Virus record (IMG/VR): IMGVR_UViG_3300047666_000417
Span: 1 to 36,787 of that record
DNA length: 36,787 nucleotides
Reading direction: 5' to 3' (one strand)
DNA from: a virus
Positions 1 to 36,426 of this stretch are shown here, one piece after another. The notes below the pieces were generated by a model, which ran no database searches, had not been told where the DNA came from, and saw only the letters and a list, made by a program, of their open reading frames with translations. Positions within the stretch are counted from its first letter, which is position 1. Each line of letters opens with the position of its first letter. A program made the position numbers and the translations under genes.

Positions 1-3000
1 TCTAAAAGTAGAATCGTTATTTACATTTAAGCCTCTACCACCAGTTCCTACACTTACACTACCTTGACCAAGTGTACTTGGAGCAGGAGGCAATGTTTGT
101 AATTGACCTTGTAGTTGTGGGGTAGGTGATCCACCAATTTGAGTAGGGATTTTAGGTTGTATTTGATTATAATTATTATTTAACTCTTGTTGCCTTGGTT
201 GAGAATTTGGGTTTTGATTTACTTGAGTAGGTTGATTATTAATTGGCTGTCCTATTTGAGAATTACCAGGTTGATTAAATGATGAATTAAATGGGTTTTG
301 TAATTCTTGAGAAGAATTTTGTAATCCTGGTAATTGCATAAAAGAAGAACTGTTCTCTCCTTGTGTTAAAGAATTACTAGGATACATATAATTATAAGAA
401 TCATCGGATAATGATTCTTGTTGTCTTAAAGTATTAGTATATTCTTGAAATTGTTTTTCTAAATTAGGATTATCAGTTAATGCTGCTTTTACACTAGTAC
501 ATGCCTTAGCATCACCTGCTTCACATGCCATTTTTTGAGCTGCGTAATTTTTTATTGCAAAAGCACCAGTAGCACTTGCATCTATCTGACCTCCTGGTGC
601 AACAGTTTCCATGCCTTTTGGAACCGACCCATCAGTACCAATCTGACCTAGTGTAGCTAATAAATGCTCTACAGGACTGTTTGGTCCACCACTAGCATAC
701 ATCTGACCACCAGCAGCCATTTCTTTAGCTTGTGTTTTTGCACGAAGTTTTAATATATTTGGATCAACCTCTTGTTGTTCACGCAATGTAGATAACTCTT
801 TCTTACGTGACTCTTGGGCTAGTTTATCTGTTAATACAGTAGAATGAGGTTGAGAAGATCCTTCACGCATTTTGTATTTAGCATAAACAGCTTTAGATAA
901 CTCTGCATATGTTTTTTTAGAGCCTTTTGGTTTAATTCTATCAGAATAGATATAATCATCAACCATAGTTTCACCACCTTCTACTTCAGCTTGTGGAGAA
1001 ATTTGTATACCACCCTGTTCGTGAGATGGTCCTTGAAAACTAATCATTTCTCCGCCTCCAGCAAACGACATAGAAGAACTACCTAAAGAGTTAGGAACAT
1101 TTTCATAAAGGTTTGGTTGGTTTGGTTGGTTGTTTTGAGACATGTAACTAGTACCTGCACCTAAAAGTGCTCCACCAACAGCTCCAATTGGACCAAGAGC
1201 GGAACCTGTGGCTGCACCAGACAAACCACTCATTAAAAGTGATTGCATGTCTATGTTACCACCACCTGCATAATTTTGATTATAATTCATATTATTTTGA
1301 TTGTTAAGATACCCACCACCCGCAAAGGACAAACTTTTAGTTTCTTCACGTTTAGGTTTTTTTCTATTTTTTATAGCATCTCTCATTTCTTTATCATACA
1401 TTTCTCTTTGTACTGACCTAGATCCATCTGGATTTTCATAAAAACGTCTTTCTCCAGTTGCTACAAAACCACGTCCCGTATCATGTCCCGTACGTTCAGT
1501 TTCAATTAATTTTTCCAACTCCATTGGAGGTATATTAGCAAGTTCTTTTGGTACGCTTCCTGTTCCTTCTTGGATAGACTCCATCTTATCCATTTTAATC
1601 TGAGGTCTCTTTGGTATAGATTTCTTTTCTTTATTAAAACTAATACCATCATACTCAGCAGTACTTCTCATATAAGGTGTACCTGAATCTCCGTACTTAT
1701 CTCGTCTTTCTACTTTTTCAGCGTCTGTTAACATATCCCAAGGTTTGATTGCTAAGGGAGCATACTCAGGAGAACTAGACCAATCTGAAGATTGACGCGA
1801 GTAATATATACTTTCTCCTTGAGGAGTTATATTAGGATGTAAATAAGCTAGAGGAGCATTAGGATTTAATCTCCCATCAGGATACCTTGTAAATATATCT
1901 CCAAACTTTGTAAGGTCAGTTCCTGGAACAGGGCCAAATTTTTGTGAACCTATCATACTATCAGGTGCATTAAAAGCATCAACTAGTTCTTTAGAAGTTC
2001 TAGTTTCTGAAGGAGAGGGCCAACGAGTATCGGTATCATCATAAACATCAGCTATCAAATTAGTTCTTACATCTTTATCTGTAAAATCTGTATGAAAATA
2101 ACCATCGGCAGGTACCTGTTTTTCTGAACCATCCTCTCCAAGGTATGTTTTAGGATTTTCTACATAATCTAGACTATTTTTATAAAAATCATTTCTAGCT
2201 TGAGCATTGTTATACAAGAATAAACTATCTGCTCTAGTAGGTTCTGGACCAGAGACTTTAATAGGATCTCCTTGTACAGGTTTTCCTTGGTTTTGATTGT
2301 TAAGATAACCTCCTCCTGCGTAACTTTTTACAGCTCCACCACTAGCATGATTGATATTAAAAATATCTTTATTTACAGGAGTTGATGGTTTGCTTATATA
2401 ATTATTATAATCTTGTCTTGTGACTTTATTAGCTTCTAAAAGATTTCCTATTTTTGTATTTTCAGCTCCTATAAATTGAGGAAAATTACCTTTAATTACA
2501 TTAGTACCTTCTGTTCTAAAAGCAGAAGATTTTCCATAATTTTTTAATATATCTAAATTTATATTTTTTGCATCATCTTTCAAGATTAATCCTGCATCAG
2601 GATTATTTTTTTTCCAAGCAGATATAGTTTCTTTATATATTTTAGATTGTTGTTCTGCATTTAAAAAAGGTAATTCATTAGGTTGCACTTTTAATATATA
2701 CATATCCCCTTTTTCTAAATCACTTGTATTACCTAATGTTTGAAATGAATTAGGGTCTGTATGTTTTCCTATGTGACTTAATGCAGAATCATAGTCTTTT
2801 CCGAAATTTAAAGTTTGTTGTAATTGTCTTTTTCTACTAGTACCAGTATTTCCAGGAATAGTAGTACCCATTATATTTAAAATTTCATCATCTGTTTTTC
2901 CTTTAAACTTTACTAAATTTCTAATTTCATCATTTAAATAAACTCCTCTATAAATTGGTTCTAAAGCTGATTTAAGTTTAGATTCTTTATTTAAAGCTTT

Positions 3001-3744
3001 CCCTGTAGTTTTAACTGCTTTTCCTGCACTACTTATTGCTTTAGAACCCATTCCTGCCCCTAATAAATCTAAAGCTCCCATACCAGTCTCAAAAGCCGCC
3101 TCACCGTAATTACCTTCTTGTATGTGTCCAGGAATTTTAGGTGCTCTATTAGTTATAAAATCAGATGCAAATCCTGCTTGTATAGAATTAGCTATTGTTG
3201 CTCCTGGTAACGAAGCTCCTCCTGCAATTGCTGGTGCAGACATGTAAGGTGCTACTGCTCCGTAAGTAGCCTCACCTGCGGCACCTAATGCAGAACTAGC
3301 TAAACCTGCTGTTGCTATAGCACCAGGCAAATACCAAGCTGGATTACGATGCACATCTTCCATATTCTGTTGTACATAACCTTCTCTAGCTTGTTTATTT
3401 CTATCAGTGTAAGATTGTTGCTGTTCTTGAGGTAGTTTAGCTATTGCAGCATCTTGTTTAGGATTAGTAATACCAGTACCTTGTACTCCTAAGTATCCTT
3501 TAGCATATTCTTTAGTTCCTTTAAGTGCATCTTTTTTAGATATACCTGTTAAAGGAGTTTCTAATTTCATTAATGCACCTGATTTAGTATTATAACCATA
3601 TCTACCAGTGTTAATCATCTTATTGATCCACTCGTTACTTTTAATATTTTGTTTAAAAGTTCTACTATTACCAGCACCTAACTCATTAATAGTTATTACT
3701 TCTGGTTCTTTAGGACCTCCACCGCTATATAAATTATTATACAT
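1..3744 (-). CDS. Giant crAss-type cargo/ejected virion protein (partial, C-terminus outside window)
   Basis: The frame is open for 1248 codons from ATG at 3744 to the window edge; I checked every triplet and found no stop, while an in-frame stop lies just upstream at 3790-3792. Residues about 137-196 and 833-865 are Ala/Gly-rich hydrophobic stretches. Short Gly-rich motifs recur: AGGGYLNNQN at about 476 and 808, and AGGG again at about 826 and 895. The last is followed by HEQGGI (about 908-913) and EVEGGE (about 920-925), a motif pair I associate with large virion proteins of Bacteroidota phages. The end seen here is Gln/Asn/Pro-rich. The gene follows the muzzle-like gene, the place of the first cargo gene in crAss-like phages, so I infer a protein packed in the tail or head and ejected into the host. 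Exact function and cleavage sites are unknown. A promoter sits directly at its start codon. Confidence 0.6.
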   Translation of the reverse strand, partial: MYNNLYSGGGPKEPEVITINELGAGNSRTFKQNIKSNEWINKMINTGRYGYNTKSGALMKLETPLTGISKKDALKGTKEYAKGYLGVQGTGITNPKQDAAIAKLPQEQQQSYTDRNKQAREGYVQQNMEDVHRNPAWYLPGAIATAGLASSALGAAGEATYGAVAPYMSAPAIAGGASLPGATIANSIQAGFASDFITNRAPKIPGHIQEGNYGEAAFETGMGALDLLGAGMGSKAISSAGKAVKTTGKALNKESKLKSALEPIYRGVYLNDEIRNLVKFKGKTDDEILNIMGTTIPGNTGTSRKRQLQQTLNFGKDYDSALSHIGKHTDPNSFQTLGNTSDLEKGDMYILKVQPNELPFLNAEQQSKIYKETISAWKKNNPDAGLILKDDAKNINLDILKNYGKSSAFRTEGTNVIKGNFPQFIGAENTKIGNLLEANKVTRQDYNNYISKPSTPVNKDIFNINHASGGAVKSYAGGGYLNNQNQGKPVQGDPIKVSGPEPTRADSLFLYNNAQARNDFYKNSLDYVENPKTYLGEDGSEKQVPADGYFHTDFTDKDVRTNLIADVYDDTDTRWPSPSETRTSKELVDAFNAPDSMIGSQKFGPVPGTDLTKFGDIFTRYPDGRLNPNAPLAYLHPNITPQGESIYYSRQSSDWSSSPEYAPLAIKPWDMLTDAEKVERRDKYGDSGTPYMRSTAEYDGISFNKEKKSIPKRPQIKMDKMESIQEGTGSVPKELANIPPMELEKLIETERTGHDTGRGFVATGERRFYENPDGSRSVQREMYDKEMRDAIKNRKKPKREETKSLSFAGGGYLNNQNNMNYNQNYAGGGNIDMQSLLMSGLSGAATGSALGPIGAVGGALLGAGTSYMSQNNQPNQPNLYENVPNSLGSSSMSFAGGGEMISFQGPSHEQGGIQISPQAEVEGGETMVDDYIYSDRIKPKGSKKTYAELSKAVYAKYKMREGSSQPHSTVLTDKLAQESRKKELSTLREQQEVDPNILKLRAKTQAKEMAAGGQMYASGGPNSPVEHLLATLGQIGTDGSVPKGMETVAPGGQIDASATGAFAIKNYAAQKMACEAGDAKACTSVKAALTDNPNLEKQFQEYTNTLRQQESLSDDSYNYMYPSNSLTQGENSSSFMQLPGLQNSSQELQNPFNSSFNQPGNSQIGQPINNQPTQVNQNPNSQPRQQELNNNYNQIQPKIPTQIGGSPTPQLQGQLQTLPPAPSTLGQGSVSVGTGGRGLNVNNDSTFR
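1281..2325 (-). repeat. Two near-identical AGGGYLNNQN-coding segments in the cargo gene
   Basis: The coding DNA near 1296-1323 and 2290-2319 encodes AGGGYLNNQN twice, about 330 residues apart, with nearly the same bases. Looser AGGG copies follow at about residues 826 and 895. They may be linkers between functional units or recognition sites for processing. Confidence 0.6.
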
Positions 3745-9880: not shown

Positions 9881-10264
9881 TTATTTACGTACACCTTCTT
9901 TGGGAGCTTCGCTATCTTTAGACTCAAAAGCATCAGCAGCTTCTTCAAAGAACTCAATTAAAGTGTGATAAAATTCGCGTAGCTCTACTGATTCGATTTC
10001 ACCATCATCATCTATAGTGGTGTTAAGAAGAGTAAGTTTCAATCCTAAATACAACTCGTGTAACTGTTCATCCGTTAATTGAATACCGTTGATACCAAAT
10101 TTAGTGATATACTCTCCGATACTATACATAATCTCTGATACATCACTTAATGATAGAGGTTTATCCTCACCATCGTTTATAGCATAAAATGTAAATACTG
10201 CTGTTAGCTTTGCATAAAAAGTAGGAGTTTTAATTCCATTAAATCCGTATTTTAATCTTGACAT
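9881..10264 (-). CDS. Acidic hypothetical protein (127 aa)
   Basis: 127 residues and not recognised. The N-terminus is basic (MSRLKYGFNGIKTPT); the rest is helical and acidic, with IQLTDEQLHELYLGLKLTLL (about 60-79) and a Glu-rich stretch near ELREFYHTLIEFFEEAADAF. No signal peptide or membrane segment is apparent. It starts 3 nt after the preceding small gene and ends just before the hairpin at 9840-9859, so it closes the metallophosphoesterase operon. Position between phosphoesterase and tail-ring genes suggests a small virion or assembly protein, but nothing in the sequence shows this. Confidence 0.6.
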   Translation of the reverse strand: MSRLKYGFNGIKTPTFYAKLTAVFTFYAINDGEDKPLSLSDVSEIMYSIGEYITKFGINGIQLTDEQLHELYLGLKLTLLNTTIDDDGEIESVELREFYHTLIEFFEEAADAFESKDSEAPKEGVRK

Positions 10265-10267
10265 TTT

Positions 10268-10510
10268 TTATTTATTTGTGGGTGTTATATTTTGTTCTAT
10301 AATTTGCATTAATGGAAAACCAAATCTTGTTGGCATTTCATTAATTATACTTTGTATTTGCTTTAGTCCGTTTTTAGTTAAGTAAAATTCAGGTGTTGGT
10401 CTACCAGGACCTAGCCCTGCTTGAGACGCTGCTTGTTTGAGATCCTCGGCTTTCTGTGAATTTTCTTTTTTATTTTCTGTAAGCTCTTTTGTTGCTCCTT
10501 TAAGTTCCAT
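10268..10510 (-). CDS. Small hypothetical protein; possible -1 frame extension of the coiled-coil gene
   Basis: The frame encodes 80 residues from ATG at 10510, with a charged N-terminal third (MELKGATKELTENKKENSQK) and a more ordered C-terminus containing PTPEFYLTKNGLKQIQSIIN and FGFPLMQIIEQN. It overlaps the upstream coiled-coil gene by 100 nt in the -1 frame. The shared DNA contains A_AAA_AAG in phase with the upstream frame, so the C-terminal about 64 residues may instead be made as a frameshift fusion. No strong ribosome binding site precedes the internal ATG. Function unknown; small coiled-coil plus globular architecture is common in phage assembly factors. Confidence 0.6.
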   Translation of the reverse strand: MELKGATKELTENKKENSQKAEDLKQAASQAGLGPGRPTPEFYLTKNGLKQIQSIINEMPTRFGFPLMQIIEQNITPTNK

Positions 10511-10572
10511 ATTAATTCTTCTAATTTTGTTAATCTTTTTTCTAATTCAGTAATTCTTGTTATATAATCCAT
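10411..10572 (-). CDS. Coiled-coil small protein, candidate frameshift donor
   Basis: 53 residues starting MDYITRITELEKRLTKLEEL, a regular heptad coiled coil, followed by a Lys/Arg-rich end. The frame is open further upstream, but ATG at 10572 is the best start because it overlaps the phosphoesterase stop by one base (TAATG), the junction used repeatedly in this genome. The first 20 codons are clear of the 80-residue frame; the remainder overlaps it and looks like an out-of-frame reading. That is why a -1 shift at 10465-10471 seems more natural than two independent proteins. The alternative is two overlapping genes. Confidence 0.5.
   Translation of the reverse strand: MDYITRITELEKRLTKLEELIWNLKEQQKSLQKIKKKIHRKPRISNKQRLKQG
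10465..10471 (-). other. Candidate -1 ribosomal slippery site A_AAA_AAG
   Basis: The minus strand reads ATA AAA AAG in the frame of the coiled-coil gene, giving the heptamer A AAA AAG in the correct phase. This is the classic efficient bacterial -1 slippery sequence. A one-base slip moves translation into the frame of the 80-residue gene. A downstream stimulatory structure is not obvious: only AGCC/GGCT and short pairings. Confidence 0.45.
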
Positions 10573-11678
10573 TATAGGTTTTCTTGTACAAATCCATCTA
10601 ATCCTTTTTCTGAGTCCCATAAAAATGCTTGACCACATCTGTAATGAGAGTAACCCATATTTTTATGCCAATCATCTGTTCCACATATAGATGGTAAAAA
10701 TCTTACTTTAATACCTCTAAACTCATTAAGCATTTCTTTATGAAGGTGTCCGCAATGAACCTCACGATGTGAAGAGTCTGCAAAAAGCAGGGGTTGTTCA
10801 GTTGCCATTATAAGTGGCATATCTGCTGGTTTCTCTTTATCTCCGTGAGTATACATTATGAGACATTTCCCATACTTGTAATACTTTCTTGGATCTGGTA
10901 AATTATTAACACTAACTGTTTTACTCTTTCCGTAATATGCAGAGATAACTTCACCTACATAAAACATTCTTTCCCAATCATGATTCCCTTGTATAACAAC
11001 AACATCTACTGGTGCTATAGTGTTTAGGTAATTAATAGCTTCTACTAATGCTGCTGAGTATGTTGTAAATGTTTCATACCAAGGAGCTGAATCATGCTGT
11101 GGTGTACCTGCTGTAGTTGTTAATCTAAGACCTTCTGAATTTAGACCGTCGTTTCCTATTGGAAGGATGAAGCGTTCTATTCTTTCGTTTGGTACTTTAG
11201 CAACTAAATTAGCTACAGTTTGTAGAAACTCTGCTTTTAGGTTTTTCATATCACCTTTACCAAAATGTAGGTCAGGTAGTGAAATCTCCATTGCGATGTT
11301 TCCATTATTTTTTGCTGGTTTAATCTTTGGTTTTTCTAATCCTTCTAACGCTTCAATTAAAGTGTTTTGAAAGATAGACCAAGATTCACCAGACTCTTCT
11401 TTTTTCTTCTTGTAAGAAGCTAACCATTCACCGTTTGCTCCTTGCCAAGCTGATACTTTCTCAAAGTTCTCTGGAACTTCTTCTATCATTATTTCTTTTA
11501 CAATCTTATCAGAAGCCTTGTTTTCTTTTCTAGCTTCCGATAAAGCTAAATCAACATCTTCAAGAGTAACTATGTATTCTCTTTTAGAAAGAATCTCAAA
11601 TAGTCTTTCCTTACCTTCTTTTAAATAACCTGGACGATCTAAAAGAAATCTTTTTATGTCTGTTTTATCAAATATCAT
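10572..11678 (-). CDS. Calcineurin-like metallophosphoesterase
   Basis: 368 residues with all the usual metal-binding motifs in order: DLH (D136, H138), GND (175-177), GNHD (231-234), a His in THGD (H278) and GHLH (310-313). This indicates a two-metal phosphoesterase. The substrate cannot be told from sequence; nucleic-acid ends, cyclic nucleotides and phosphoproteins are all possible. Residues 1-120 are a charged helical extension with WQGANGEWLASYK (about 78-90), a pattern seen in phosphoesterases from Bacteroidota phages. The gene has its own promoter 28 nt upstream and couples by TAATG to the next gene. A cytoplasmic enzyme beside tail genes may serve assembly or host control; that part is inference. 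Confidence 0.85.
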   Translation of the reverse strand: MIFDKTDIKRFLLDRPGYLKEGKERLFEILSKREYIVTLEDVDLALSEARKENKASDKIVKEIMIEEVPENFEKVSAWQGANGEWLASYKKKKEESGESWSIFQNTLIEALEGLEKPKIKPAKNNGNIAMEISLPDLHFGKGDMKNLKAEFLQTVANLVAKVPNERIERFILPIGNDGLNSEGLRLTTTAGTPQHDSAPWYETFTTYSAALVEAINYLNTIAPVDVVVIQGNHDWERMFYVGEVISAYYGKSKTVSVNNLPDPRKYYKYGKCLIMYTHGDKEKPADMPLIMATEQPLLFADSSHREVHCGHLHKEMLNEFRGIKVRFLPSICGTDDWHKNMGYSHYRCGQAFLWDSEKGLDGFVQENL

Positions 11679-11705
11679 ATAGTCTTATATGTTTTATTAT
11701 TCCTG

Positions 11706-11736
11706 CAAAGTTAGTGACTTTTTTTGGATTACACAA
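11706..11736 (-). promoter_or_regulatory. Promoter for the metallophosphoesterase operon
   Basis: Minus strand: TTG (11736-11734), exactly 20 nt, then TAACTTTG (11713-11706). The box ends 27 nt before the ATG at 11678, leaving a short leader of roughly 20 nt. It lies in the 76-nt gap after the lysis cassette. Confidence 0.65.
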
Positions 11737-11754
11737 GTTTTTCGATAACTATTT

Positions 11755-12243
11755 TTATTTACCTAATAAAAAACCTGCAATTAACCCACCAGTACCAATT
11801 ACAATAATTGTTTTATTTTTACGTTTAACTTTTCTATTTTCTTTAATGTAAAGATTTTTATAACTTTCTCTTGACTCATTAAGTGAATCATTGAGTTTTT
11901 CAGAACGATTTAAATCAGCATTTACTCTAGAAAGAATTTCTTTATTATAAGCAAGTATCTTTTTAGTTAGTTCATGACTATTAGCTTCTTCACTGTAAAG
12001 CTGTAGAGCACCCTTTAAATCGTCTAAATAGATACGTTTGTATATAAGTTTCTCAATGATACGTTGTTCTTGTTCCCATGTAAAAAATACACCACTATCT
12101 TGGTCAAGAATAACTCTAACGGGGGAAAGAGACAATTGTGTCGCGTATGGCGGACTCGACTGTCCAGAAACTATCACGCTGCTCAATACTAGAAGTAGCA
12201 AGCTTAATGTACTGTAAAGATTTTTCTTGATTATTTTTAACAT
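11755..12243 (-). CDS. Exported protein with C-terminal membrane anchor, spanin-like
   Basis: 162 residues. The N-terminus (MLKIIKKNLYSTLSLLLLVL, then SSVIVSGQ) is a signal peptide with no lipobox Cys, probably cleaved near SGQ. The middle (about 50-140) is helical and charged, rich in Glu, Lys and Asn. The last 17 residues (about 145-161) form a Gly-rich hydrophobic segment ending LLGK, after a KRKNK basic stretch. The gene starts inside the previous gene in another frame, 128 nt before its end, as Rz1 genes do in Rz. The order amidase, membrane coiled coil, overlapping exported protein suggests a spanin system. The missing lipobox and the C-terminal anchor are unlike a classical outer-membrane spanin, so the role is inferred. 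Confidence 0.45.
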   Translation of the reverse strand: MLKIIKKNLYSTLSLLLLVLSSVIVSGQSSPPYATQLSLSPVRVILDQDSGVFFTWEQEQRIIEKLIYKRIYLDDLKGALQLYSEEANSHELTKKILAYNKEILSRVNADLNRSEKLNDSLNESRESYKNLYIKENRKVKRKNKTIIVIGTGGLIAGFLLGK

Positions 12244-12496
12244 CTATTTTAATTTTATTTTGATTATTTCGTAAGCTATCTCTTTCTTCTATTAATTTCT
12301 CTATGATAGATTCCGCTTGAGTTACATATTCTAAAGTTTGTTTTCTTTCAGCTTTAACTGTTTCTACAAATTTATTTAGTATTTCTTCTTTAGCGTTTAA
12401 CTTATATTCTAATTTATAATTCCTATTACCTGTAAATAAAAATAACCCTAAAAAGATCACTCCTATTAATAAAATTAATTGTTCTCTTGCTTTCAT
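12116..12496 (-). CDS. Inner-membrane spanin-like protein (Rz-like)
   Basis: 126 residues. It has one N-terminal membrane segment (about 6-23, QLILLIGVIFLGLFLFTG) followed by a long charged coiled coil (about 30-105) containing ESIIEKLIEERDSLRNNQNK. This is the architecture of Rz-type inner-membrane spanins. The ATG overlaps the amidase stop by 4 nt (ATGA), and the downstream exported protein begins inside it. It uses TAG as stop (12118-12116), evidence that TAG is not recoded. Identification rests on topology and position, since spanins are too divergent to call by sequence. Confidence 0.55.
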   Translation of the reverse strand: MKAREQLILLIGVIFLGLFLFTGNRNYKLEYKLNAKEEILNKFVETVKAERKQTLEYVTQAESIIEKLIEERDSLRNNQNKIKIDVKNNQEKSLQYIKLATSSIEQRDSFWTVESAIRDTIVSFPR

Positions 12497-13032
12497 ACTA
12501 TGTTATTTTCTTTTAACCAATCAGACACTTCAAAGCTAGGACACCTTTTAATCCACTCAAATGACTCTATAATACCGTTGTTGTTTAGGTCTGGGGAATA
12601 ATCCCTATGACCTTTGACAGGTATTTTACCTAATTCGTGTGGTTGTCTTAGTTGATTAACTAAATTAACCATTGATTGTTTTTGAGCAAAAGTCCTGTCA
12701 TCGTTATCTTTACCTCCTATATAAGAGATATGTACTGTATCTCTGTTATACCCTTTAACACCATTAGAGACTTTACCTAATGACCATGTGTTAACAATAG
12801 TACCATTAGGTTCTATTATATAATGATAACCTGGGGAATTCCATTTCTTTACATTTTTAAAATAATTAAGTATATCCTGAGCACTAGCATTTTGAGAAGA
12901 TGCTGTACAATGAATGACTATACCATTTATTTTACGCCCGTAATTCTTAGGGGCTATTTTAGAGGGGGATGCTTTCAGGGTCGGAATAATCTTCCCCAAG
13001 TTCCTCCCCAGTGTTCTGAGATAAGTTAACAT
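12493..13032 (-). CDS. N-acetylmuramoyl-L-alanine amidase (endolysin, PGRP/amidase_2 type)
   Basis: 179 residues. It cleaves the bond between N-acetylmuramic acid and L-alanine of peptidoglycan. The zinc ligands of the T7-lysozyme/PGRP family are visible: H41 in GIVIHCTAS, H142 in VKGHRDYSPD and C164 in KRCPSFE. YHYIIEPNGTIV (about 69-80) is the conserved core strand pair. Between the second and third ligands lies DLNNNGIIESFE (148-159), a textbook 12-residue EF-hand loop, so calcium may order the active site. No signal peptide is seen, so release depends on a holin; two candidates lie just upstream. The start overlaps the holin-like gene by 74 nt; no later Met precedes the catalytic core, so this start is kept. 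Confidence 0.92.
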   Translation of the reverse strand: MLTYLRTLGRNLGKIIPTLKASPSKIAPKNYGRKINGIVIHCTASSQNASAQDILNYFKNVKKWNSPGYHYIIEPNGTIVNTWSLGKVSNGVKGYNRDTVHISYIGGKDNDDRTFAQKQSMVNLVNQLRQPHELGKIPVKGHRDYSPDLNNNGIIESFEWIKRCPSFEVSDWLKENNIV

Positions 13033-13273
13033 GTGTTTGATTTACAAATGAAGGTCTATTAGTTTCTTTATTTACATAGTATCCTGCAAGCATACCTATA
13101 GTGGTCGCTATAGCACTCCAGGCTGCCCATGCAGACACTGAAGAAGTATCTCCCAATTCTAATGATTTTATGATAACATACATTGGAAAAAAAGACATTG
13201 ATAAAAGTAAACAAGAAATAATTGTAGTTACTTTAAGTCTACTACGCTGTACATTATCTAATTTAAGTTTCAT
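12959..13273 (-). CDS. Two-helix membrane protein, holin candidate
   Basis: 104 residues. Two hydrophobic segments are visible: about 15-35 (TTIISCLLLSMSFFPMYVII) and about 47-67 (SAWAAWSAIATTIGMLAGYY). They are followed by an acidic hydrophilic tail ending SDPESIPL, and a basic stretch (QRSRLK) precedes the first helix. Small size, two helices and overlap with the amidase gene fit a holin that releases the endolysin. The neighbour upstream is another small two-helix protein, so one may be holin and the other antiholin or a partner. Confidence 0.5.
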   Translation of the reverse strand: MKLKLDNVQRSRLKVTTIISCLLLSMSFFPMYVIIKSLELGDTSSVSAWAAWSAIATTIGMLAGYYVNKETNRPSFVNQTHVNLSQNTGEELGEDYSDPESIPL

Positions 13274-34911: not shown

Positions 34912-35295
34912 TTATTTTTTTAAAAGTTTTTGCTTTTTAATCTTAATTGCTCGTAAAACAGCCATCTGAGTATGCCCTGGATCAATAAAATTTAAAATCC
35001 ATACAATACCTTTACCTAACTTAGTTAAGTTACTAACAGCTTCATTTTTACCTAATACATAAGAGATCGTGTCATCTGGGTCACCAAATTGGTAAACCTT
35101 TTCTTTAACTAACCATTTATTAAAAACTGGTGCTCCAATAGTATTACCAGTTTGGTCTATTGATAAAGCATTAAAAAACATGTAGTCATTACGATTCTTA
35201 GCAAGAATTAAACCAAGTATAAACAATGCTGGTATTAATATCATTGCCATTATAGCTGCTACAATAAACAATACAAAACCTTGTATTTTTTTCAT
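34912..35295 (-). CDS. Small inner-membrane protein (127 aa)
   Basis: 127 residues from ATG 35295, which overlaps the previous stop (ATGA). An upstream in-frame ATG at 35352 is less likely because it would run 61 nt into the preceding gene. The start MKKIQGFVLFIVAAIMAMIL, then IPALFILGLILAKNRND gives one long or two tightly packed membrane helices (about 6-32). A mainly soluble part follows, and the end is very basic (LRAIKIKKQKLLKK). It is likely in the inner membrane with the tail in the cytoplasm. It could act in superinfection control or host membrane modification; nothing specific is recognised. Confidence 0.6.
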   Translation of the reverse strand: MKKIQGFVLFIVAAIMAMILIPALFILGLILAKNRNDYMFFNALSIDQTGNTIGAPVFNKWLVKEKVYQFGDPDDTISYVLGKNEAVSNLTKLGKGIVWILNFIDPGHTQMAVLRAIKIKKQKLLKK

Positions 35296-35561
35296 TTTGG
35301 ATTTTTTAGAAGATAAGTTCGTCGCTTCTCTCTCCCATCTGCAAATATCCAAGGTGACTTTAAAAATATATATCCTTCACCTGCTTGATTATCAAACTCT
35401 GTGTCATAATAATCTAAAAATGCTTTAACATCTTGTGGTAATGTAAGAGTAAGTTCCCATTTCTGACCTACTGGGTCGTCAAGCAGTGTAGCCTTACTAG
35501 CAAATGCTGGTGGAACCTTATTTACTATAACCTTTCTTGTGTATTGTCCTGATTGTGCCAT
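35292..35561 (-). CDS. Small hypothetical protein (89 aa)
   Basis: 89 residues and soluble. It begins MAQSGQYTRKVIVNKVPPAF; the middle is WELTLTLPQDVKAFLDYYDT (about 35-54), and it ends in a basic stretch (GREKRRTYLLKNPK). The alternating strands with one helix suggest a small alpha/beta fold. Start and stop are shared with its neighbours by 1 and 4 bases, so the four genes from 35981 to 34912 form one operon. Not recognised. Confidence 0.6.
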   Translation of the reverse strand: MAQSGQYTRKVIVNKVPPAFASKATLLDDPVGQKWELTLTLPQDVKAFLDYYDTEFDNQAGEGYIFLKSPWIFADGREKRRTYLLKNPK

Positions 35562-36063: not shown

Positions 36064-36095
36064 TTAGGAAATATGAATTATTCTTTGTAACTTTG
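36064..36095 (+). promoter_or_regulatory. Rightward promoter of the candidate structured RNA
   Basis: TAACTTTG (36088-36095) matches TAnnTTTG. Twenty nt upstream is TTAG (36064-36067), a one-base departure from TTTG. Transcription would start near 36100, at the beginning of the first stem of the RNA. The stretch 36018-36063 between the divergent promoters is AT-rich with no other signal that I can see. Confidence 0.55.
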
Positions 36096-36099
36096 CTAA

Positions 36100-36426
36100 G
36101 TAGTGAAGCGTATGCGGTAGCAGACGTCAACAACTACTGTCTGTTAAGACAAGTAGTATAGTCTTCACGATTGTTTAAGCCCAATATTATTTTAAAAATA
36201 ATAAAAAAATATTTATCAAAAAATCGTTGCACCGCCGTACCAAGGAGTCATAGACTCAAGGAAAGCTCGCTACCTGCAACAGAGAGGGTAACAGGTGAAA
36301 TACCCTCTCAACTTTTTAATTAAAACCAGATGCTTATGAAATACCAGAATTCAATGAAAGTCGAACTAGTATAAAAGGAGGTAATCAATCTAACTAAAAG
36401 GTCTAATTAATTTTAGACCTTTTTTC
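36100..36426 (+). ncRNA. Candidate structured non-coding RNA, about 330 nt
   Basis: This 330-nt stretch has no credible protein frame, is visibly less AT-rich than its surroundings, and is bounded by a promoter and an intrinsic terminator. Stems seen by eye are: GTGAAG 36103-36108 with CTTCAC 36163-36168; a 10-bp hairpin with one bulged A at 36133-36157; ACGATT 36167-36172 with AATCGT 36222-36227, enclosing an A/T hairpin; GTTGCA 36226-36231 with TGCAAC 36275-36280, enclosing GAGTC/GACTC (36245-36257); and a 9-bp hairpin at 36282-36309. GGTAGC (36116-36121) could pair with GCTACC (36269-36274), suggesting a pseudoknot. I do not recognise the class; it is not a tRNA or tmRNA. It could regulate host or phage expression, act at replication start, or be a ribozyme. 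Confidence 0.65.
36397..36426 (+). terminator. Intrinsic terminator of the structured RNA
   Basis: A 10-bp stem (AAAGGTCTAA 36397-36406 with TTAGACCTTT 36413-36422), a 6-nt loop and a T run to 36425. It is the clearest intrinsic terminator in the window, and its T tract runs directly into the next promoter. Confidence 0.85.

Follow-up and report, generated by a model that had tools for sequence, protein, structure and literature searches.

A conserved structured RNA at the right end of a crAss-like phage record

A 36.8-kb IMG/VR virus record of crAss-like type (the whole stretch, called the window below) carries at its right end a noncoding unit whose predicted RNA folds into a structure that is conserved in a syntenic ortholog from a related phage contig (L013). 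The comparison argues for a real and probably functional RNA of about 325 nt, the length being predicted from the positions of promoter and terminator, and the layout of promoter and terminator, 5' domain, spacer, second domain and tail is well supported by it. The terminase of the window matches crAss-like phages in a phage collection, and the genes for portal (phrog_6547), terminase (phrog_6681), major head protein (phrog_11589) and a GroEL-like chaperonin all point leftward. On one side of the unit the genes point leftward, and on the other lies a small ORF that points rightward; an earlier description made from the letters of this DNA alone (the sequence-only reading) had placed an RNA between leftward virion genes and rightward genes, and the gene map bears this out. 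The same reading had stated that there was no coding frame, which holds in that no ATG frame of at least 50 aa lies inside the unit, but not for short frames, as a 14-codon ATG frame is present at 36330-36374. The features of the unit in window coordinates are as follows.

36064-36067: weak -33 element TTAG, about 20 nt upstream of the -7 element
36088-36095, plus strand: promoter -7 element TAACTTTG, Bacteroidota TAnnTTTG type
36098-36425, plus strand: structured RNA, whole predicted transcription unit (fold z -4.8; ortholog in L013)
36103-36168, plus strand: P1, GUGAAG (36103-36108) with CUUCAC (36163-36168), the stem that closes the 5' domain; almost invariant, 5/6 pairs in L013
36109-36126, plus strand: P2, local hairpin CGU-A-UGC-GGUA-GCA-G-ACG, found by eye; L013 matches loosely (UGCG/CGCA)
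36133-36157, plus strand: P3, 6 bp and 4 bp with tetraloop and a 1-nt bulge on the 3' side
36170-36185, plus strand: P4, hairpin with 8-nt loop directly 3' of CUUCACG; 4 bp in the window, 6 bp in L013
36186-36225, plus strand: AT-rich variable spacer, position of the approximately 560-bp insert in L013
36226-36280, plus strand: P5, GUUGCA (36226-36231) with UGCAAC (36275-36280)
36232-36238, plus strand: CCGCCGU, 5' strand of the internal loop between P5 and P6; same letters in L013
36245-36257, plus strand: P6, 5 bp and triloop; GAGUC AUA GACUC in the window, UUCUC GCU GAGAA in L013
36267-36273, plus strand: UCGCUAC, 3' strand of the internal loop between P5 and P6; same letters in L013
36282-36309, plus strand: P7, GAGAGGGUA with UACCCUCUC; loop GGUGAAA (36294-36300), loop motif kept in L013
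36330-36374, plus strand: mini-ORF of 14 codons if read from 36330, of 12 if read from the ATG at 36336; 24 codons in the L013 frame
36373-36381, plus strand: AAAAGGAGG, complement of the 16S rRNA 3' tail; same place in L013
36396-36425, plus strand: intrinsic terminator AAAAGGUCUAA-UUAAUU-UUAGACCUUUU with T-run, read from the sequence

Promoter, terminator and predicted fold

A Bacteroidota-type promoter of its own and an intrinsic terminator had been ascribed to the unit in the sequence-only reading, and both can be read in the window and have equivalents in the ortholog. The predicted transcription start lies at about 36098-36102. At the equivalent place L013 has the full consensus TTTG-N20-TATCTTTG, and BLASTN matches its promoter DNA to parts of a Microviridae record and of other phages. 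The terminator stem (36396-36406 paired with 36413-36423) runs into a T-run at 36420-36425; its equivalent in L013 differs in sequence. Simple scanners for the sigma-70 consensus and for GC-rich terminator stems reported neither promoter nor terminator, a result that is uninformative for Bacteroidota.

The RNA strand of the unit has a predicted folding energy of -81.5 kcal/mol (z = -4.8), a value equalled by 0/100 shuffles, and the fold without the terminator gives z = -3.95. Since two of the eight coding control segments of the window reach comparable z-scores (-3.9 and -5.0), folding energy alone is not decisive, whereas the ortholog and the covariation are, and we rejected the MFE z-score by itself as proof of an RNA. 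Seven stems (P1-P7) were found where at least five had been noted before. P1 encloses P2 and P3 and is followed by P4 to make up the 5' domain; after the tolerant spacer, the second domain consists of P5, the CCGCCGU/UCGCUAC internal loop and P6, and then P7 with its GGUGAAA loop. A long-range pairing of GGTAGC (36116-36121) with GCTACC (36269-36274) had also been suggested. The two are perfect complements in the window, but L013 keeps UCGCUAC and has no GUAGC-like partner in its 5' domain, and the pairing was rejected as a conserved one. The 5' strand of P1 (GUGAAG) and the P7 loop (GGUGAAA) could both pair with CUUCAC, and might form a switch.

Conservation of the fold in the ortholog

Related loci were fetched by terminase similarity. 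L013 is IMG/VR contig 3300023313_000005 (75.5 kb), whose terminase is 71% identical to that of the window in the best segment. Its RNA occupies the syntenic place, keeps the orientation to the flanking genes that it has in the window, and adjoins the ortholog (54% identity) of the window gene at 35292-35561. The blocks AGUGAUGCGGAUG, CUUCACGAU, CCGCCGU, UCGCUAC, GGUGAAAU and AAAAGGAGG follow one another in L013 in the order of the window.

Covariance models were built from the window sequence alone, R1 for the 5' domain and R2 for the second domain. With filters off, both ranked the expected place first in 23 kb of L013, R1 at 3477-3575 (25.0 bits, E 0.00033) and R2 at 2847-2919 (20.2 bits, E 0.0035), on the same strand and in the right order. 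Over 98 sources (1.27 Mb), L013 again came first among the non-self matches of R2 (E 0.19) and was missed by R1 run with default filters. In two-row alignments of window and L013, 14 base pairs (7 + 7) have changed on both sides and still pair; 97% of cells pair, as against 29-54% when partners are slid by 1-3 columns, in alignments that were fitted to the structure and are thus biased towards it. A hand check independent of the models agreed. P3, with its 6 + 4 bp, tetraloop and 3' bulge, is found in both RNAs, the bulge being 2 nt in L013 with six double changes, and this architecture was reached by only 394 and 158 of 200,000 shuffles. P4, P5 and P6 also recur in both RNAs, with weaker individual statistics; four of the six P5 pairs are changed on both sides in L013, where the stem is extended to 8 bp. 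Because the pairing in the two-row alignments and the hand check of P3, P4, P5 and P6 agree, we regard the fold as conserved between the two phages. A syntenic homolog and compensatory base-pair changes, the marks of a conserved structured noncoding RNA, are thus both present, and the covariation that had been named as a check in the sequence-only reading is seen as 14 double changes between two syntenic orthologs.

The L013 contig showed several further peculiarities. An insert of about 560 bp (2896-3454, minus) lies in the RNA spacer between P4 and P5 and holds two overlapping small hydrophobic ORFs of 75 and 107-123 aa, neither with a convincing family match; the second ends within the conserved CCGCCGU region of the RNA. 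Elsewhere in L013, the segment 1340-1640 (minus) folds strongly on one strand only (z -4.6) and has CCGCCGTACCAA and GGAGTCATA in common with the window RNA. The place carrying these two motifs (1496-1450, minus) was rejected as a copy of the RNA, as it lacks the UCGCUAC strand and the stems. The terminase match at 10001-13153 covers 3.15 kb as compared to 2.2 kb, which suggests an intron or insert in the gene. At about 35.0-38.4 kb of the same contig (L215:5000-8400), tandem small glycine-rich paralogous proteins starting MID... are encoded, with an extreme GC skew of about -0.7.

Searches for known families and further members

No tRNA or tmRNA was detected in the unit by ARAGORN or Rfam, as the sequence-only reading had expected. 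Its proposed Rfam check likewise yielded no known family: Rfam 15 gave nothing for the window at gathering or permissive thresholds and only sub-threshold matches for the ortholog, and the OLE, GOLLD and ROOL covariance models in Rfam did not match. The tRNA, tmRNA, riboswitch and ribozyme families of Rfam were therefore rejected as identities. The suggestion of a new phage RNA class is borne out by the lack of an Rfam match and by covariation, but the word class here covers two members, the window and L013.

Exact and gapped DNA patterns, run against viral and genome contigs, recovered besides the L013 contig only matches without flanking stems, and the neighbour gene as query found the L013 contig alone. 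The window RNA had no BLASTN match among phages and plasmids, and those of the L013 RNA were confined to short and promoter-like stretches. Searches with R1 and R2 over 98 sources and with R3 over 96 gave no credible third member. Such negatives are weak for divergent relatives because R1 with default filters missed even L013; the whole-record R3 search missed it too and carries no weight. The contigs of the close relatives L003/L010 and L002/L009 end before the RNA. One candidate in L015 (3257-3620, minus; GTGAAGCGCATG) was not counted, as its one shared motif is at chance level. Nor do we take the likeness of GGUGAAAU to the 16S '690 loop' as evidence, an 8-letter match being estimated to arise by chance about half the time. 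A brief literature search found no paper joining crAss-like phages with structured noncoding RNA.

Long gaps free of sizeable ORFs were seen upstream of virion genes in related crAss-like phages, at L042:520-1093, L042:1610-2114 and L043:1330-1656 (minus) and likewise at L016:794-1201, L045:2403-3164 and L015:2444-3070 (minus). They fold with z -4.9 to -8.3, match no Rfam family at gathering thresholds and are possibly further new phage RNAs. A Hatchet ribozyme match (77.9 bits, gathering threshold 51) lies at L016:645-781 (minus), in a relative of the window phage.

A Shine-Dalgarno-like motif in the tail

From P7 to the terminator the two RNAs have diverged except for TTATGAAANNNCAG and AAAAGGAGG. 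With the letters of the 16S rRNA tail assumed from the phylum, AAAAGGAGG can pair with it over 9 bp in the window and 8 bp in L013, and a complement of at least 8 nt occurs in 0.25% and 0.38% of shuffled tails. AAGGAGG is found once in the window, both strands counted, and the 32 gene starts inspected are without Shine-Dalgarno (SD) sites, as is expected for Bacteroidota. The duplex with the assumed 16S tail was calculated at -13.6 kcal/mol for the window and -12.2 kcal/mol for L013. An extended SD of the rpsU type comprises 9-13 consecutive base pairs at -14 to -21 kcal/mol; the two values lie within the rpsR-like range and short of the rpsU range (PMC9976891). Coding-DNA sites in the window reach -15.8 kcal/mol with the same assumed tail, and by modelled energy the pairing is good, not exceptional. 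In the minimum-energy fold predicted for the window RNA, the letters AAAAGG of the motif are base-paired.

GGAGG is followed by UAAUCAAUCUAA in the window and AACUAUCUAA in L013. In neither is there an AUG, GUG or UUG between GGAGG and the terminator, and the start codon 5-10 nt downstream that marks an SD-type ribosome binding site is absent. In both tails (window 36377-36393) GGAGG is followed after 6 nt (window) or 4 nt (L013) by AUCUAA; AUC-UAA could be a start-stop pair or chance.

Possible modes of action

The reading we put forward, tentatively, is that of a standalone, conserved structured noncoding RNA that would act in trans by hooking 30S subunits through the anti-SD. Its tail would pair with the anti-SD end of the host 16S rRNA, the host being assumed from the phylum, and would capture the subset of 30S subunits with a free 16S tail; the folded body may then block or remodel the platform, or recruit a protein, so as to act on translation. 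Because no AUG, GUG or UUG separates the hook from the terminator, the tail would be a lure or modulator and not a ribosome binding site. We infer transcription, ribosome binding and any effect from the sequences of the two RNAs. In Bacteroidia the anti-SD is hidden in a pocket of bS21, bS18 and bS6, and strong SD sequences are translated better by bS21-depleted ribosomes, which controls rpsU (PMC9976891). A stronger claim, which we consider unlikely, is that some Bacteroidota ribosomes are commandeered or blocked by the phage RNA via this normally hidden anti-SD. Against the hook reading count the modelled duplex energies and the pairing of AAAAGG in the predicted fold; a search for a bS21 gene also came up empty, both in the window and in 13 related records, which are possibly fragments.

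It is also conceivable, if somewhat doubtful, that the structured body binds a phage or host protein, as a decoy or in anti-defence, packaging or regulation, and that AAAAGGAGG is incidental or a single-stranded protein site. The most invariant stretches lie in loops or internal-loop strands (CCGCCGU, UCGCUAC, GGUGAAA) or at the 5' start (GUGAWGCGKAUG), a pattern typical of protein- or tertiary-contact sites, and the body exceeds in size and conservation what an SD lure requires. However, protein binding leaves unexplained why, in a tail that otherwise diverges, the longest conserved stretch should be a complement of 16S rRNA.

We hold it to be rather improbable that the RNA is a transcript associated with a replication origin, where it would act as a primer, form an R-loop or regulate the origin, and where the AT-rich spacer would be the element that unwinds. 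The cumulative GC skew of the L013 contig turns at a minimum at 49-51 kb and the RNA lies at 50.6-51.4 kb; the skew of the window shrinks towards the RNA, and the AT-richness of the spacer would suit unwinding. GC skew here also tracks gene direction, however, which flips at the RNA, and the L013 insert puts about 560 bp between the two halves, while the terminator and the compensatory changes in most stems point to a finished, folded RNA rather than an origin transcript.

Slightly less probable still is a long structured leader, riboswitch-like or of the attenuator type, acting in cis on a mini-ORF of 12-24 codons. Both RNAs do contain a short ATG frame that starts with TTATGAAANNNCAG in an A/T-rich context and ends with TAA just before AAGGAGG. 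The encoded peptides, however, are conserved only in MK-x-Q and differ two-fold in length, and coding selection is beyond two-sequence data; moreover, the terminator directly follows the mini-ORF, and therefore no larger gene would be controlled. A chance fold in an intergenic spacer, for which the z-scores of the two coding controls could be cited, is scarcely credible against a syntenic ortholog, matches of two single-sequence covariance models, 14 double changes and conserved promoter and terminator positions, as it would need a spurious L013 match, very unlikely given the synteny.

Relation to known systems

GOLLD and ROOL are structured RNAs of unknown function that are linked with phages or prophages, as is the window RNA. 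They are much larger and oligomeric (PMC12286853), and the window RNA has no Rfam match. For the proposed capture of 30S subunits, the nearest parallel is OLE RNA, a structured bacterial noncoding RNA that is reported to exploit SD/anti-SD mimicry and to bind bS21 (PMC12054373). It is about 600 nt long, occurs mostly in Bacillota and itself contains the anti-SD strand, and the likeness is one of idea only. The extended-SD leader of rpsU in Bacteroidia is likewise strongly complementary to the 16S tail, in a phylum where SD sites are avoided, but a start codon and the bS21 gene follow it, where the phage RNA has a terminator and no usual start codon, and the predicted pairing of the phage RNA (9 and 8 bp) is shorter (PMC9976891). 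With phage-encoded bS21 (PMC9723584, PMC6375957), phages have been proposed to manipulate the same site of the ribosome, by a protein gene instead of an RNA.

Even without the ribosome link, the RNA is a testable new family. If the phage RNA does capture ribosomes through the anti-SD, it would be the nucleic-acid counterpart of phage-encoded bS21, and, should the ribosome link hold, it would join the question of why Bacteroidota keep an unused anti-SD to that of how their phages redirect translation.
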